Source: Oehlia diaphana (taxonomy: Eukaryota > Glomeromycota > Glomeromycetes > Glomerales > Glomeraceae). From it: a DNA stretch of 64,000 nt. Numbering within the stretch: the first letter of the stretch is position 1; each line of letters begins with the position of its first letter. The stretch covers positions 33,114 to 97,113 of the forward strand of contig QZLH01000158.1 of NCBI GenBank assembly GCA_003833135.1, read 5' to 3'. Positions 13,022 through 23,109 of this stretch are shown here, piece by piece. A model generated the notes under the pieces. That model did not search any database, was not told the origin of the DNA, and saw nothing but the letters and a program-made list of their open reading frames with translations. The position numbers and the translations under genes are program-made.

Positions 13022-15682
13022 ATGAAAGACATAAATAATATTGAAACCTTAAATGATATGTTTATGAAAGATGATGATGAATTATCATTGTTGTCGACGG
13101 ATACGGAATTTTCATTTTTCGCGACATCGAATCATACATCAACAAATTCGAATTCTCTTACATCGATCACAACGCATGGGATAAATGAACAAATGGATAA
13201 TATTGAATTACATATATTTAAATTAAATGATCCATCAATTATCAATATGATGGAAAAACAATTATGTAAAGTGAATGGTATAAAAAATGTTGAAATTAAT
13301 TTTGCAACAGGAAATGCTCTAATAAAATATGATAAAAATTTATTGGGAACAAGAGATATAATAGAAAAAGTTGAATGTTTGGGATTAAAATGTAAATTCA
13401 TTAATAATGTTAAATTAAATCAATTGGAATATTTTACTAGAAGAAAAAGTATTTTAAAATGGAGGAATGCACTTTTTTATTCTTTATCATTTACTATACC
13501 AATTATTATCATTTCCTTGATACAAAATATTGTCGATATAGAATTATTTCATGGTTTATTCATTGGTGATTTAATCTCATTTTTATTAAGTATTCCTGTA
13601 CAATTTGGATTTGGAAAAAATTTTTATATTAGACCATTTAAAGATCTTAGATATGGAAAATTTACTACGGATATGTTGTTCATAATTACTACTTTATTAT
13701 TATTCATTATTTCTTGTGTCTCAATGATTTATTCAATTTTTAGCACGAATTCATCACATCCTTTGATAATGTTTGATATATCTACCACGTTAATAACTTT
13801 CCTTATGTTAAATCATTATTTAGAAAATATGATCAAAAGAAAAAGTTTGGAATCTATAGCAAGATTATTATCCCTTATTCCTGAAATAACAACTATTATT
13901 TATATTAATTCTAAAACTGGAGAAATCACTGGAAAAAAGACCATTCCAACAGAATGTTTACAAGTAGGTGATATAGTAAAAATTACACCAGGAACTATTA
14001 TTCCTTCGGATGGGAAAGTTATATCAGGAGTTTCTGACGTAGATGAATCAATTATAACTGGCAAAAATATTATTAATAAAGTATTAAAAAATGTTCGTCG
14101 TGGTGATGAGGTTTTTGCTGGAACAATTAATGGATCAGGATACTTTGAAATGCAAATTGTACGCGTAGGAAATGATACTATTTTATCGCAAATTATTAAA
14201 TCTGTTAAAGAAGCTCAAACGAATAAAGCACCCATTCAATTATTTGTGGATAAATGTATGACTTATTTTATTCCTATAATTATATTATTAGGAATCATTT
14301 CTTTTATTTTATGGGGAGAATCAAGCATCTCAATTATAATTATGGCTTGTCCTTATATATTAACTTTAAGTAGTTCAATAATTGTTATGATTGGTACAGA
14401 GATTGGAACTCAAAATGGTATATTAATTAAAGGAGGAAGAATAATTGAAGTTGGATCTAAAATAACAGAAGTAGTTTTTAATAAAACTGGTATATTAACT
14501 CAAGGAAAATTTGATGTAGCTCACTATGAACTGAACTTATCAGAAATCACTCCTGAAACATTTTTTACAATTATTGAGGCTGCAGAATCTTCAAGTGATC
14601 ATCCAATAGGAAAGGCTATAGTTGAATTTAGTAATCAATTATTAAGTTCAAATGAGAATGAATATGATATTGATATTAATAATTTTGAGTCCATGACGGG
14701 ACATGGAATTAAATGTGATGTTTTACTTAATACTTCCACTCGTTTTTCATCTTACGCTACATCAAAAGTTTATAACGTTTTAATCGGAAATATTGAATTT
14801 ATTTCACAATTATATCAAATTGAAATTCCTCAATCAGCTTTGATAATTAAAGAAAAACAAGAATTATTAGGTAGAACAACAATATTTGTCGCTATTAATG
14901 ATTCTTTTATGGGTTCATTATTTTTATCGGATTCAATTAAACCTGAATCAAAATTAACTGTCGATGCATTAAAATCTATGGGATTAAAAGTTTCTATGAT
15001 AACTGCAGATCAAAAATTGACTGCTCAATCGATTGCTTCTAAATGTGGTATAGACATTGTTTATTCACAACTTTCATCAAAAGGAAAATTAAATGTTATT
15101 CAATCATTACAATTGTCAAATGAAATAGTAGCGATGGTAGGAAATGCTGATGATACAAATGATTCTTTAGCATTATCAAAAGCTGATATTAGTATATCAT
15201 TATCTTCTTTAACCACGGATTATAATATGGATTATTCTTCTGATATTATGTTCATGAATGGAAATTTATTAACTGATATAATATCTTTATTCGATTTTTT
15301 AAGAAAATTATTTAACCGAATGAAATATAATTTTATTTATATCGGTTTATGTAACTTATTATCAATACCTATAAATTTATTATTATTATTATTAGGTTTT
15401 TATTTAAATCCTATTTTGGCTGTTATCTTCATTTATTTAATTAGTTTGCCTGTTGTATTTTCAAATTTGTTATTAAAATCTTGGGAAAAACCTCTTTGGA
15501 TTAGAATTTCTGAAGATAATGTTGTTAAATTGGAAAATAGAAAAAATTATATGCCGGTAAATATCAGTAATAGTAATAGATTAATAGATTGGTTTAGAAA
15601 CAAAAAGTTGAAGTTGATGGAAACGATGTTTGGCACTTGTAATGATTCTAGAGTAGAAAACGAAAATATTATTCGGGTGTAA
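13022..15682 (+). CDS. P1B-type copper-ATPase-like protein, predicted catalytically dead pseudoenzyme (886 aa)
   Basis: The fold and order are those of Cu+ P-type ATPases (CCC2/ATP7): HMA-like domain (about 59-130), membrane helices (from about 148), actuator domain, core helices, phosphorylation and nucleotide domains, and a final helix pair. Family landmarks are clear: NKAPIQLFVDK, NGILIKGGRIIEVGSKI, SSDHPIGKAI and NPILAVIFIY. Yet key residues are changed. The phosphorylated Asp of DKTGT is Asn487 (FNKTGILTQG). CPC is CPY (443-445). TGES is TGKN (346-349). TGDN is TADQ (661-664). GDGxNDSPAL is GNADDTNDSLAL (707-718). The HMA lacks CxxC, and the last-helix MxxSS site is gone. There are no stops or frameshifts and no intron, while neighbours have many. 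It should neither hydrolyse ATP nor move copper in the usual way; a regulatory role or a decaying retrocopy are both possible. Confidence 0.88.
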   Translation: MKDINNIETLNDMFMKDDDELSLLSTDTEFSFFATSNHTSTNSNSLTSITTHGINEQMDNIELHIFKLNDPSIINMMEKQLCKVNGIKNVEINFATGNALIKYDKNLLGTRDIIEKVECLGLKCKFINNVKLNQLEYFTRRKSILKWRNALFYSLSFTIPIIIISLIQNIVDIELFHGLFIGDLISFLLSIPVQFGFGKNFYIRPFKDLRYGKFTTDMLFIITTLLLFIISCVSMIYSIFSTNSSHPLIMFDISTTLITFLMLNHYLENMIKRKSLESIARLLSLIPEITTIIYINSKTGEITGKKTIPTECLQVGDIVKITPGTIIPSDGKVISGVSDVDESIITGKNIINKVLKNVRRGDEVFAGTINGSGYFEMQIVRVGNDTILSQIIKSVKEAQTNKAPIQLFVDKCMTYFIPIIILLGIISFILWGESSISIIIMACPYILTLSSSIIVMIGTEIGTQNGILIKGGRIIEVGSKITEVVFNKTGILTQGKFDVAHYELNLSEITPETFFTIIEAAESSSDHPIGKAIVEFSNQLLSSNENEYDIDINNFESMTGHGIKCDVLLNTSTRFSSYATSKVYNVLIGNIEFISQLYQIEIPQSALIIKEKQELLGRTTIFVAINDSFMGSLFLSDSIKPESKLTVDALKSMGLKVSMITADQKLTAQSIASKCGIDIVYSQLSSKGKLNVIQSLQLSNEIVAMVGNADDTNDSLALSKADISISLSSLTTDYNMDYSSDIMFMNGNLLTDIISLFDFLRKLFNRMKYNFIYIGLCNLLSIPINLLLLLLGFYLNPILAVIFIYLISLPVVFSNLLLKSWEKPLWIRISEDNVVKLENRKNYMPVNISNSNRLIDWFRNKKLKLMETMFGTCNDSRVENENIIRV

Positions 15683-15892: not shown

Positions 15893-17082
15893 ATGTCCTC
15901 CCAAAACAATGATGATTCTAAAATTCAACGTGCTCCTACTAGTGAAGAATTAAAAGAATTTGAATTTATTCAAGTTCTTAATGAAGGTGATTATTAAAGT
16001 TGGTTTAAAAAATTAAACATTTATTAAATATTATTTTTTTTTTTTCGTCAAAGACCCTCGTACAAAAGGAGTATGCATTTTAGGAAAACTTAAATCTTCA
16101 TCATCATCTGAAGACCCAAAAGATGCAATATTGTTATTAGAAAAATTACATTTTGGCAGTCAAGAACTTCCTATCCTTTTAAAGGAAAGAATTCTTCAAT
16201 GGATTTCCACAGATAATAATGACATATACCATTGGTACAATGGTTTATTGACAAAGGACGAAAAATTCCCAGATTTCAAAGCTACGCTTATTTGGCCTGC
16301 TACTGAAGCGGTAAACTCTTTTCTTTTATCATTTGTTTGGTATTTACTTTTAATTATATGTATAAATTTTCAATAGCATATACGAAAATACAGTTTTCAA
16401 CCTCGTTTCTTAATTCGAGAAACTCCTCATATTTACGAAACAATCGTTAAACCTTACATTGAATCTATACCTACAAGCAGAATTCAATGGGTTTACAATA
16501 TCTTGTCCAAGAAAAGTGAATCTGAAAGGATCGTGTTAGAAGTTGAAGAAGAATCAACTGGATTTATTTTATTACCGGATATGAAATGGGACACTGTAAC
16601 GTTGGAAAATCTTTATCTTGTCGCCATTGTACATAGAAGAGATATTCGTTGTATACGTGATTTAAATGACACGCATTTGCCATTGCTTAAGAATTTAAGA
16701 CATCAAATTCTTCATTTCGTTCCACAAAAATATCCTGGAATAAGATCTGATGAATTACGCCTTTTTGTTCATCATTTGCCATCATATTGTAAGTATATAT
16801 GTACGTGAGTCAATTTTTTTCTTGAACCGAGTTAAAAAATTCTTTTTATTTCCCTAAATCACAGATCACTTTCATGTCCATGTTACACATCTTAGAAATG
16901 ATACTATTGCTGGGGGAATAGCAATTGCTAAAGCATACCTATTAGATGACATTATAGAAAATTTGGAGAAGTTTGCTAAGGATTATTATAAGAAAGCGAC
17001 ACTAACTTATGTTTTGGGTGAAAATGATCCGTTATTTTCTCAAATGAATGATATTGGAGCAAGGGTTACAGCTGATACTTAA
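15893..17082 (+). CDS. DCS1: scavenger mRNA decapping enzyme DcpS/Dcs1
   Basis: DcpS hydrolyses the m7GpppN cap left after 3'-5' mRNA decay. Four exons (15893-15986, 16054-16310, 16377-16788, 16865-17082) give 326 residues, close to human DcpS (337). The N-terminal half contains the domain-swapped region (ELKEFEFIQVLNEDPRTKGV). The C-terminal HIT domain carries RIQWVYNILSKKSESERIV, PDMKWD, LHFVPQKYPG and LPSYYHFHVHVTHL, whose His-x-His-x-His set holds the catalytic middle His. The splice at 16788/16865 recreates the SYYHFHVHVTHL motif. The stop is 47 bases from the stop of convergent Elongin C, so transcripts may overlap at their 3' ends. Confidence 0.95.
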
Positions 17083-17845: not shown

Positions 17846-19588
17846 TTAATAAAAACTTTCTATCTTTTTTAAATTGACTTTCAAATCGAAAGAACGATTC
17901 GTACCAAAATATACTACTTTAGCAGGACTAATTTTATCAATTAATTCAACATTATATTTTCTAAATAATAATATTAATAAACATTTTAATATAACTATAG
18001 CCAATTTTTTTCCTGGACAATTCCTAATTATACCATCACACCAAGGTATAAAACTATTTTTTTCTTTGTCATTTTCTTCTTTATTATTATTACTATTATA
18101 AAATCGATCCGGAATAAATTTTTCTGGTTCATACCAAGAAATTTTATCTTTATGAAGTTTTTCTTGGTGTAACCATATTGGAGTATCTTTTTCAATTATA
18201 TGTCCATTAAGTGCTGTTTTAACATGTGTTTGACGTGTTATTAATGGATTTAACGGGATTATTCTTTGTGTTTCTTTAATTATTGCTTCGAGGTATTGGA
18301 ATTTATTTAAGTCTTCGAATGTTATTGGTCGTAAAAAATCGTTGCCCAATACTTCAAAGATTTCTTCACGTAAACGCTGTAACACTCCAGAATTTTTGCA
18401 AATATTATAAACTGCAAAACAAAATGTACTAGCAGTCTAAAAAAAAATAATAATAATATTGTAAGTTAATTATATTATTAAATTTTTCAATAAGAAAAAA
18501 ATTATAATTTTTCTTTTTCTTTTTACCGGATCTCTGCCGCCAATATCAATATCTAATATAGTTGCAAGAATTTCATGATCAGTCATTGATTTTTCATTAT
18601 CAAATTCATCAAATCCAAATCCGAACCCGTTTGGATCACGTGGAGTATTTATTGTTAACAAAATATCCAAGAGATCTGTTGAATCGATAGGTTCATTTTC
18701 TCTCATTAAATCGATTTCTTTTCTTCTTTGTTTAATAATTTCTAATAAATTATAAAATAACCATTTATTATTTCTTCTAAATTTTTCTGATAAACCTCTA
18801 AATCCTGGTAAATAATTTCTAATCAATTGAGGAATTGAATTAGAATAAATTAATGAATTAAAATAAGTTTCAATTGAATTAAATAAATTTAAAGAATTGA
18901 TCATTTTTTCTCGTGTTTTACTAATACGTTTATCATTATCCTTATTATTCTTATTATTAATTGCTTTCATAAAACAATATGATGATTCTTTTGTTGATGT
19001 TGATAATATAATATCTGTTAAAAAATGTCTACTCCAAACTGATAAATCTAATGAAATAATATCATTATTCCAATTTAATTCTACTTCATTAAAAATATTT
19101 TGAATAGATTTTGTTAAACCTTTTAAAAAATTTATGGAACAAATAGATTTTTCAAAAACTCTTCTATAAATTTTCCATTTTTCATGATCATTATTAAATA
19201 TAGCACCATAATTTATAGTAATATTATCTAAATCTAATTTAACATCTTTATATTTTGTAAAATAATTTATTGAGTTATTATTTTCTTTATATAATTCTTG
19301 TATTAATCTTGGTTGTGATATAACAATATTTCTTTGATTTCCTATATAAAATTCCCAGAAATTTCCATATTTTTTGGTCTGTTCATTAGCAAATTTATTA
19401 AATCTTATTCCGATTTGATGTAAATTTCCTATAATTGGTAAAGGTATTGGCCCGGGAAGTGAATTTCTTTTTCCTATAAAATATCTAATATAATATTGTA
19501 ATACATAAAAAATCAAAGAGGAAATCAAAAATTTCAAAAAGTTTTTTAAAGAAAAAAACTTTAGATTTAATAAAAAAGGATCAAACAT
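17846..19588 (-). CDS. cytochrome P450 with unusual I-helix and heme loop (550 aa)
   Basis: P450s are heme monooxygenases, usually anchored in the ER. Two exons (19588-18527 and 18436-17846) join in frame inside the I-helix. The N-terminus has a hydrophobic anchor (about 20-38) and the Pro-rich hinge LPGPIPLPIIGNLHQIG. The K-helix ExxR is present (KETQR), as is the PDRF meander. The Cys loop reads FIPWCDGIIRNCPGKKLA: the Cys ligand and R at Cys-2 are present, but spacing shows one extra residue and the usual Phe/Gly positions differ. The I-helix reads GGRDPTAS, with Pro where the first Thr of the usual [AG]GxDT[TS] lies. It looks full length; substrate cannot be inferred. It may be a specialised or weakened enzyme. 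Confidence 0.9.
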
Positions 19589-19817
19589 TATAAAATAAAA
19601 AAAGGAACTATAAAGAAAAATATATTAAAAAGAGTTAAAAAGAGAGGTGTATATATTTCCGTCGTTAAGTTAAAGATTTACTCAATTAATTTTATTGGTT
19701 TATTTGAAATTTATTTTGTAACACGTCGAAATTAAATGCATAATTAAATTCAAATTAATACAGTACAAATAATGCAGTAGATCATTTTTATACCAAAAAA
19801 AGCCGTGAATAATAACT

Positions 19818-22800
19818 TTAAGTAGTGGTAGTAGTCTTCTGTAATTTATCATTATTTTTTAAATTGTCTCCAAATGTTTTTATTTTTACGGAATATTTAG
19901 GTTTATTCTCTTGAGCCAATCGTCGTTCTTTAGATTGTTTCAAAGCTTTCTTTGAATCTTTAACATCGGATTTCGTTATACGATGTCGTTTTCTTGAGAA
20001 TTTCATTGATTGTAATGATTGATGAATGATCGTTTCACAATTTGATTTCATTTCAAGTGCTTCTTGAATATTTAAAAATGTCTCCGATAATCTATAACTG
20101 TTTTCATATTTCAATAAAGTAAATTAATAAATAATCAAATATTTATTTATTAAAAATGAGACCTATACATGGGAATGTAATAATTCGGCGTAATGGTGAA
20201 ATATACTACACCAAATTATGATTCATATCACACCGCTGTAATGCCAAATTGGTGTAATGTGCCGAACCCAATTCATCCCCATGTATAGGTATGTAAAACC
20301 ATGAAATCGTACCTTAGCCACAAATATAACATGATTATACGATGTTTCAATTCAATATGAGATAGACCTAACGTATCTTCTGGTACTTTAACATCAAGAG
20401 ACACGACTGAATTAAGTGAAATTGGTTTTCGTTCACTGTAATGTTTTGCAAACTATTTATTAAGAAAAAAAAGTAATTTAGTATTTATAAAAATTAAAAA
20501 ACAAATGTCGATATTTTATATTTTTCGTAATACCATTTTGATAATAGTAACAAGTTTTGGATCTGATATATTTACGGGAGATGTTGCGAAAATAAAACGT
20601 TCAGGTATAGTCAAATCAACGTGTTCAATCGATTTAGCAATTGCCTAAAATATAATTTATTTTTAATTATTTTGATTTAAAAAAAGAATAAACAAAACAA
20701 CTACTTAATTTACCTTCTGAGTATCAAAATTACACAAAAAGAATTGTCCATCGACACGAGCTAAGTCTTCAAATTTTTCCTATTATAAAAAAGTAAAATA
20801 ACGAATTTAAGAAATCTTTCAGGTTAGAGAAATAACAATTCAAAAACATACCAAGAGCTTTTCAAATTGTTTAATATCGGGCAATTGATGAGCAAATTGT
20901 TCAACCATTTCCATTGTAGGTTGCAATCCTGCAACCTTATTTAATTAGAAGTTAACATAAATATTCTCTTAAAATGACAGAAAGTTTTAAAACGGATAAT
21001 AAAATAAATACCTCTAACTCAATAGAAGGTGTGACCATTGCTTTTTGGACATATCTCAAATCTTGAGATTCCAAACTATCAAATAATCGATATTGTATTA
21101 ATATTTATTATTATATTATTATTTTAATATGAAAAAAAAAAACTCTCCTTACGCAGTAACTTCACCAACTGAATTTTCAAACCCATATCGCCCAGCCCGT
21201 CCAGCAATTTGTTTAATTTGTGGAATCGGAACATATCCAACATCCTTCCCATCATATTTCCTTACAGTCTCAAACACAATTCGCCGGATATTACTGAAAT
21301 TCCAAAGGTTGAATTTAAATCTAATTCGTGAATATAATTTCAATCCAGAACTCAAATAACAAAATCTCACAGATTTAAGCCCATTCCGACCGCATCGCTA
21401 GCAACTAAAACATCATATCCGCTATTTGGATCATTGAATAACTTAGCCTGCATTGCTCTAGTCTCTTAAAAGTTACAAATATATTTTAATATTTTTTTTA
21501 AAAAAATAATGAATTACATATAAGTATATATGTTACCTGGTGGTAAAGCACCGTAAACAACAGCACATCGAAGACCCGTAGCTGTTTCAATTTCATGCTT
21601 AAGACCAAAAATCGCCTTTCTAGAAAATGTTACCACACAATCTCCTTTCCGAATTTTCTTTATATCCCCATCAAGACTTTCATTTGCTACTACAAGTTTT
21701 GAAAGTCTGTTATACTCTCTAACTTCGACATCTTCGTTTAAACTAGCACATATTGATTTTACTAATTTAACAGCTGAAGCTTCTCCACATAAATGAATTT
21801 CTTTTGCTTGCAAACCCAAGAGTGCCTGAGTCCATGCCCAACCTCTTTGCTGATCAGATATCATTTGAATCTCATCTATTACTGCAACATCTAATGGAGT
21901 ATTTAAATTAGCCATTTCTATAGTTGAAGCGGTTAAAGGAACATGATCTCCTAATAATGTCCTTCTTTCTTCTCCTGTTACAAGATTACATGGAATACTT
22001 TTGTTATTCATCCTATCAAAAATTTCATGAGCAAGTAATCTTAGAGGTCCACAATATATGCCTGATTTAGCTTTTTCTAACTTTTGAAGTGCGTTATATG
22101 TTTTCCCTGAATTTGTAGGTCCAACATGCAGGATGATTTTACTATCAATTTGATACATAATTGTTATAAGACTTCAATATTATAGAAAAGATTAATTTAT
22201 TCATTGTATGAAGCATACCGTTGCATAGCTCTTGCAGACGGATGCCATTCTGCAGGAAAACTCAAGTCACTTAATTGTTTTAGTGAATGATATTTTTCTT
22301 TATCCTGCTCTTCCATATATTCTGGAATATACTCCAAAAATGCACTCGTTAATGTTCTTTTTACTCCTTCTTTCTAGATAACAATAATAAGATTAAATCA
22401 CGAATATATATACTTCCTTTTGATGAATTTGAAAAAAACTTACCCCATTAGCATTATAAGCAGATTGTAAAGTTTCAGTTTTACATCTGGTAAGTTTATT
22501 ATCCCAAACTTCGCCAACAAATTTTTGCATTACTTTTTTAAATTTACTAGGTGATAAACCTAATTCTAGAGATTTCTTCTTAATTTCAGTAGAACTTTTA
22601 AATCGTAATAATAAATCAGATAGTAAATCTGCACTCCATTTTACTTTAAGGCCCAATGCTTCTTCAAATAATGATAAATAACTTCTTTTTGTATTATGCT
22701 CTTCCTTTTTTTGTTTTGATAGTGTTTTATATAAAGTATTTGATAAGTTCTTTATTACGCCATGGTTTTTTGGTGGATTTGGAGAACCGTGACGCGATAA

Positions 22801-22929
22801 AATTTTTGATGTCGAAAAAGGAGTTATAATCCTATTTTGAAAATAAAAAAATTCTATATTCGGTAATTTTAACTTTGATGTTATTCGGTATGAATTCACG
22901 TTTGAAGAAGAATAAAAAACAGGTCTCAT
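19818..22929 (-). CDS. SUV3: mitochondrial ATP-dependent RNA helicase SUV3
   Basis: Suv3 unwinds RNA for the mitochondrial degradosome. The first real ATG is at 22927-22929; a frame extending upstream begins only at TTG. The N-terminus is basic and Ser/Asn-rich, fitting a mitochondrial presequence. Helicase motifs appear in order: GPTNSGKTY (Walker A), VIDEIQMI (motif II), [35 protein letters not shown] and [10 protein letters not shown]. The MGLNLNIRRI join needs an acceptor at 21293, skipping 78 bases that stay open in one frame. Later exons give [46 protein letters not shown] and [19 protein letters not shown], the family's C-terminal region, then a basic tail ending in a Thr run. The last intron (20098-20312) contains an inverted-repeat element. 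Confidence 0.93.
20161..20290. mobile_element. 130-bp inverted-repeat element (MITE-like) in the last SUV3 intron
   Basis: The left end ACCTATACATGGGAATG is matched by the right end CATCCCCATGTATAGGT read on the other strand, giving terminal inverted repeats of about 15-17 bp with one mismatch. The interior contains further inverted pieces around TTCGGCGTAATG and GTAATGTGCCGAA. It has no coding capacity. It makes up over half of a 215-bp intron, far longer than the neighbouring introns. I could not define a target-site duplication with certainty, so the superfamily is unknown. Inner motifs recur near 46830-46910. Confidence 0.7.
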
Positions 22930-23109
22930 TTTTTTTTTTGAAATAATTTTCCGAAAATCTGGTATCTCAAATAAGATTATCAAACCACCCCCATATTAGG
23001 TTATAAGCGTAAACGCAGTATCACACGAGAAATAAATTTTGCGTCGATCGATTTGTTATAAATATTTATCCAAAAAACATTCATTTAATACTAATTATCG
23101 CTCTTAAAA
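22930..23109. promoter_or_regulatory. 180-bp shared 5' region between divergent SUV3 and COG1
   Basis: The start codons of SUV3 (minus) and COG1 (plus) are only 180 bases apart, so both promoters are packed in this stretch. It is slightly less AT-rich than its surroundings (for example GCGTAAACGCAGTATCACAC near 23005). No specific factor site is recognised. Confidence 0.45.

Follow-up and report, generated by a model that had tools for sequence, protein, structure and literature searches.

Pseudoenzymes are familiar among kinases and proteases. A degenerate P-type ATPase domain, of the P4 type, has been described in guanylate cyclase beta of Plasmodium (partial text of PMC6592433). In Rhizophagus irregularis, four P1B genes were reported as putative copper ATPases, three named CCC2 and one CRD1 (partial text of PMC4196481); the string 'DKTG' does not occur in the main text of that paper, as far as it was available. 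P-type ATPases are commonly defined by the DKTG motif and at least one published inventory drops sequences without DKTGT (partial text of PMC10763278), so that dead members of the superfamily can go unseen. In the literature searched, which covers few subscription papers and holds some sources as partial text, no dead P1B ATPase was found, and no paper combined 'pseudoenzyme' with 'P-type ATPase'. The available part of PMC10654040 contains nothing on dead P-type ATPases.

The gene described here is, with high confidence, a dead P1B paralogue that has been selectively kept. It offers a testable case: the gene is single copy, its genome also contains two intact, working paralogues, and three other species have dead relatives of it. 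Our preferred reading is that of an old, maintained pseudo-ATPase derived from CCC2, which would bind nucleotide and act by protein contact, most likely on the working CCC2 pumps; taken as a whole, this statement is a serious possibility that stops a little short of being probable.

The locus and the P-type ATPases of its genome

The window is the whole stretch of DNA analysed, 64,000 nucleotides of contig QZLH01000158.1, from a genome whose assembly comprises 1672 contigs and totals 108.8 Mb. The coding sequence of the CCC2-type pseudo-ATPase lies at 13022–15682 on the forward strand and was recognised by its frame and by profile matches, its start being supported by the Funneliformis caledonium protein, the first residue of which falls at the corresponding position. 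The intact 886-codon frame announced by the sequence-only reading has exact coordinates: 886 codons plus a stop, intronless and free of internal stops. A DNA-level search showed the gene to be single copy in its genome, which rules out a recent duplicate.

The protein scored 388.2 bits against the heavy-metal P-type profile TIGR01525, above the cut-off of 346.25, which places it in the P1B subfamily, and 360.2 bits against the copper profile TIGR01511, below the cut-off of 397. Pfam returned E1-E2_ATPase, Hydrolase and a sub-threshold HMA match.

Adjoining the gene are a DcpS scavenger decapping enzyme downstream (16017–16808, forward strand, with the N-terminal domain in one frame and the C-terminal domain in the next), a cytochrome P450 (17846–19624, reverse strand) and a Suv3-type helicase domain (21514–22173, reverse strand). 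The Pfam match of the P450 falls within 18470–19624, and the frame at 17846–18436 on the reverse strand resembles by eye its C-terminal part. Frames at 21149–21397 and 22393–22995 may represent other exons of the helicase. No functional link through these neighbours was apparent.

Four P1B loci were found by a search of the genome with the window protein. Two of these, L019 (contig C34, 1121 aa) and L020 (C127, 1211 aa), are working CCC2-type genes that keep DKTGT, CPC, TGE, TGD, GDGINDSP and YN, each in a single open frame; they differ from R. irregularis proteins at 17 of 1121 and 13 of 1211 residues, respectively (about 99% identity), and by this identity the genome is that of R. irregularis or a near relative. 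The fourth, on C2, is split over frames, has DKTGT and CPC and was taken for CRD1. The three CCC2-type genes (L019, L020 and L021) thus each occupy one uninterrupted frame, and the CRD1-like gene does not. Three CCC2 genes plus one CRD1 in PMC4196481 (partial text) equal the four P1B loci found here, so the window gene is probably one of those three CCC2 genes, for which Table 1 of that paper lists intraradical/spore ratios of 2.6, 1 and 0.7. A non-pumping protein may thus be included when copper ATPases of mycorrhizal fungi are counted. A PF00122 search of the genome gave at least 23 matches, grouped here into at least 18 P-type loci, some of which may be fragments; DKTG is present in 17 of the 18 loci found, and NKTG in the window gene alone.

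Catalytic and metal-site residues

The two working CCC2 paralogues encoded in this genome served as reference for the motifs of the window protein. All features below are on the forward strand and were located by alignment unless stated otherwise. The DKTGT of the paralogues reads NKTGI, NKTG covering residues 487–490 (14480–14491), so the DKTG of a P-type enzyme is absent. Replacement of the phosphorylated Asp by Asn487, as first read, was confirmed by a codon check (codon 487, 14480–14482, is AAT). Likewise CPC has become CPY in M4 (residues 443–445, 14348–14356), which deprives the protein of the CPC typical of a copper transporter. In the hinge, GDGINDSP is replaced by GNADDTNDSL (residues 707–716, 15140–15169), and the two-residue insertion and loss of Pro noticed earlier are both there (GDG--INDSP to GNADDTNDSL, with D to N and P to L). 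In M5–M6 (residues 751–820, 15272–15481, by alignment and structure model), Cys replaces the Tyr of the YN pair in M5, giving CN, and Ile replaces the Met of M6, in agreement with the claimed loss of the final metal site.

Two other changes had been overstated. The A-domain TGE is TGK (residues 346–348, 14057–14065), followed by an insertion common to three Asn-bearing species; it had been read as TGES turned into TGKN, but the working paralogues have TGEV and only the Glu to Lys change is a difference. Similarly, TGD is TAD (residues 661–663, 15002–15010), and of the supposed change from TGDN to TADQ only Gly to Ala holds, the paralogues having TGDQ. Neither the TGE of the A-domain nor the GDG of the P-domain of a P-type enzyme is thus retained, their places being taken by TGK and by GNA with two extra residues.

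In 338 P1B proteins aligned from the matches listed, which are best matches and no census, the Asp column holds 332 Asp, four Asn, one Thr and one gap; the five rows with another residue belong to the dead clade only, the window gene entering twice, once per assembly. A rescue through deamidation of Asn487 to Asp was considered and, by reasoning, is unlikely because the Entrophospora relative has Thr and the other catalytic sites are gone.

The HMA-like domain and the predicted structure

A metal-free HMA-like domain spans residues 59–127 (13196–13402, forward strand, boundaries set here). It has no CxxC, an HMA-like fold in the model and the slowest change relative to the working paralogues of any part. 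The window protein contains no GMxCxxC motif, against three and four in the two working paralogues, and so does not carry the CxxC-bearing N-terminal HMA of copper-transporting P1B ATPases. No upstream exon with an HMA motif was found in six frames over window positions 5–22 kb. The missing HMA CxxC had been counted among the marks of degeneration; its absence is real but not special, as the membrane-proximal CxxC is absent from 29 of 29 Glomeromycota CCC2 rows of the tree set and present in all seven rows from other fungi. On these sequences the loss is ancestral. Working genes make up 25 of the 29 rows, and a metal-free HMA is fixed in the working copper pumps of the phylum. A copper-sensing role, one of those first suggested, is disfavoured because the protein has lost both the cysteines of the HMA and the Cys-Pro-Cys site.

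An AlphaFold2 model built on 43 sequences (mean pLDDT 73.9, pTM 0.68) predicts a P1B fold in which an HMA-like fold, the A, P and N domains and eight long membrane helices can be recognised; the pLDDT falls below 50 for residues 1–56, 840–854 and 863–886. The model most closely resembles ATP7B, HMA4 and bacterial copper ATPases, with target-length TM-scores of 0.85 for 7r0g, 0.78 for 7xun and 0.72 for 8q74 (E1 with Cu). Two structures labelled E2P scored lower (4bbj 0.48, 8q75 0.45), but ATP7B entries 7si6 and 7si3 also score about 0.4, and the predicted conformation is weak evidence.

Relatives and phylogeny

Besides a 99% copy from another assembly (P0002), which shares the Asn, the matches listed included proteins of Glomus cerebriforme (P0003, 73.3% identity over 854 aligned residues) and F. 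caledonium (P0004, 58.7% over 678), both with Asn, and of Entrophospora sp. SA101 (P0005, 42.8% over 809), with Thr at the Asp position. The Asp loss therefore extends to relatives at 59% identity, with three Asn species and the Entrophospora Thr, and the question whether the substitution is shared, raised by the sequence-only reading, is answered in the affirmative. An orthologue with intact DKTG, which that reading had named as evidence against itself, was not found among the matches listed (best 120 of 245 and of 1332).

The Entrophospora dead protein keeps CPC, TGE, YN and the M6 Met and Ser, i.e. an intact membrane metal site without the Asp. Its model contains a subtilase (residues 180–422) fused to the dead ATPase, probably a gene-model fusion. 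In F. caledonium the model breaks off at about the position of residue 700, so that M5–M6 are missing, and its M4 is altered; it is either a poor model or a decaying gene. No dead copy of R. clarus, F. mosseae or F. geosporum was among the matches listed (best 120 of 245 and 120 of 1332), and working paralogues of all three were found. Based on the short F. caledonium model and these three species, some lineages may do without the dead gene.

In a tree of 36 rows (four dead, 32 working) and 839 columns, the four dead proteins formed one clade (support 100/99) beside CCC2B (90/80), within the Glomeromycota and after Paraglomus, Geosiphon and Ambispora branch off. The branches of the dead clade are long, and the tree tool flags a possible long-branch meeting. 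After removal of seven motif stretches, the Asn clade joined CCC2B (87/81) when Entrophospora was left out; when the Asn clade was left out instead, Entrophospora took a basal position in CCC2A that was practically unsupported (51/9). Both separate placements are close to where the two working clades diverge. Entrophospora and the Asn clade have 11 residues in common that are absent from the 32 working rows. The same count per working row was zero in 26 rows, among them the long Batrachochytrium row, and one in six rows. These shared unique residues favour a common origin of the dead clade over long-branch attraction, its exact placement being unsure.

Entrophospora belongs to an order of its own, Entrophosporales (NCBI taxonomy). 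In the standard code, Asp to Thr takes two base changes and Asn is one possible intermediate, which fits a single ancestral loss of the Asp followed by Asn to Thr in Entrophospora.

Distribution of constraint over the protein

Differences with G. cerebriforme were counted per domain for the dead gene and for the two working paralogues pooled. Membrane segments (93/310 in the dead gene, 64/684 in the working genes) and the A-domain (residues 287–403, 13880–14230, forward strand, Pfam E1-E2_ATPase, boundaries set here; 35/116 versus 21/226) each changed about three times faster. The counts were 23/117 versus 15/231 for the second P part, 28/126 versus 43/264 for the N-domain, 3/24 versus 8/48 for the P1 loop and 13/69 versus 31/138 for the HMA-like domain. 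In a test on the share of differences, the HMA-like domain (p 0.002) and the N-domain (p 0.025) stood out, the former alone surviving correction for nine tests. The pooled working rate of the HMA-like domain is raised by CCC2B (CCC2A 9/69, CCC2B 22/69, dead 13/69). Against Funneliformis, the HMA-like result was repeated (15/58, or 0.26, in the dead gene versus 0.29 and 0.33 in the working genes), but that of the N-domain was not (46/125, or 0.37, versus 0.16 and 0.24). With a metal-free HMA in all Glomeromycota rows and in none of the other fungi, the domain that the dead protein keeps best is one also carried by its working sisters.

The N-domain (residues 503–628, 14528–14905, forward strand, by alignment) retains Glu522, His527, Gly560, Gly562, Ile563, Gly589 and Asn590, which correspond to ATP-contact positions of ATP7B. 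The three Asn-bearing species have all seven, together with Thr661 and Lys689 of the HAD core. In other P-type ATPases, changes such as Asp to Asn raise the affinity for ATP. These residues, together with the few differences in the P1 loop, could also indicate a sensor of nucleotide or energy state, in which Asn permits ATP binding without hydrolysis and the signal is read out by proteins other than the CCC2 pumps. With an N-domain that is not slow against Funneliformis, and with the equivalents of Glu522, Gly560 and Ile563 (three of the seven) missing in Entrophospora, this is rather unlikely.

A transporter or channel with an altered mechanism or substrate, working without phosphorylation, would agree with the eight membrane helices of the model, which are still hydrophobic in the dead protein. 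However, relaxation is greatest in the membrane segments, and the sequence of M4 is different in each of three species, which makes this explanation improbable.

Constraint on the frame

Neutral drift was simulated from the window coding sequence to an amino acid difference of 26.2%, with 60 runs in each of nine settings that varied base composition and transition bias. Mean stop numbers across the settings were 15.1 to 24.8, and the lowest single run had seven (n = 540). The pair formed by the window and G. cerebriforme proteins, at a difference of 26.7%, has no stop and ten gaps, the longest of 14 residues. Its replacements have a mean BLOSUM62 score of 0.11, compared with −0.09 for the best of the 540 neutral runs and with 0.22 and −0.05 for working pairs. 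The simulation ignores indels and starts from the window sequence alone; it rejects neutrality and gives no omega. By definition an annotated protein has an open frame, and an intron in a gene model may conceal a stop. With these cautions, the comparison shows constraint on the frame of the dead gene.

Of the two outcomes foreseen originally, the results favour a selected non-catalytic role, given an Asp loss common to relatives, an open frame where neutrality predicts 15–25 stops, and conservative replacements. The depth of the Asp loss and the open frame speak against very recent relaxation. The idea of a decaying pseudogene that is still open by chance draws on the faster change of the dead gene, which over the shared core differs at 195 of 762 positions against 182 of 1591 for the pooled working genes, and on the short F. 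caledonium model and the missing R. clarus copy among the matches listed. The absence of stops weighs against it, with the reservation that protein databases favour open frames, as do the small gaps and conservative replacements. Between assemblies, moreover, the dead gene has 10 replacements in 886 residues, no more per site than the working genes (13/1211 and 17/1121), and decay is accordingly very improbable. An assembly or strain error hiding a working pump has a negligible probability, since the same Asn is found in the independent 99% copy, in G. cerebriforme and in F. caledonium, which equally excludes a fresh pseudogene, and many further catalytic changes accompany it.

Proposed role and comparison with known systems

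Catalytic residues are lost, and fold and frame are kept under selection: by sequence, simulation and predicted fold the window protein has the properties of a pseudoenzyme. In the preferred reading of a maintained CCC2-derived pseudo-ATPase, loss of the Asp would prevent formation of a phosphoenzyme and loss of the membrane copper site would prevent pumping, so that the protein presumably does not pump. The N-domain probably still binds nucleotide. Contact with other proteins could be made through the metal-free HMA-like domain and the cytosolic P and N parts, and, acting in trans, the protein would most likely regulate the two working CCC2 proteins, serve them as a scaffold or compete with them.

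More tentatively, and with appreciable doubt, the dead proteins may constitute a stand-alone P-type pseudoenzyme family of arbuscular mycorrhizal fungi, derived from a CCC2 duplication before the split of Glomerales and Entrophosporales. The Asp would have been lost first, as Entrophospora still has CPC, TGE and the M5–M6 metal residues; loss of the copper site would have followed in the Rhizophagus-Funneliformis line, and the present function would be exerted in trans on working CCC2 through the metal-free HMA.

By descent and predicted fold the window protein belongs to the same family as the fungal CCC2 pumps (R. irregularis CCC2.1, CCC2.2 and CCC2.3; partial text of PMC4196481), and its gene is intronless like the two working CCC2 paralogues; neither the phosphorylated Asp nor the CPC, TGE and CxxC HMAs of these pumps are present in it. 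The degenerate domain of the Plasmodium cyclase is of the P4 type and fused to a cyclase, whereas the window protein is a stand-alone P1B protein. A parallel for action by protein contact is the non-pumping signalling of Na,K-ATPase, as described in partially available sources, but there the pump itself is active. The engineered ATP7B C983S/C985S/D1027A (7xuk and 7xun) lacks the same CPC cysteines and catalytic Asp as the window protein; it is a laboratory mutant, whereas the window protein is the product of a natural, conserved gene.
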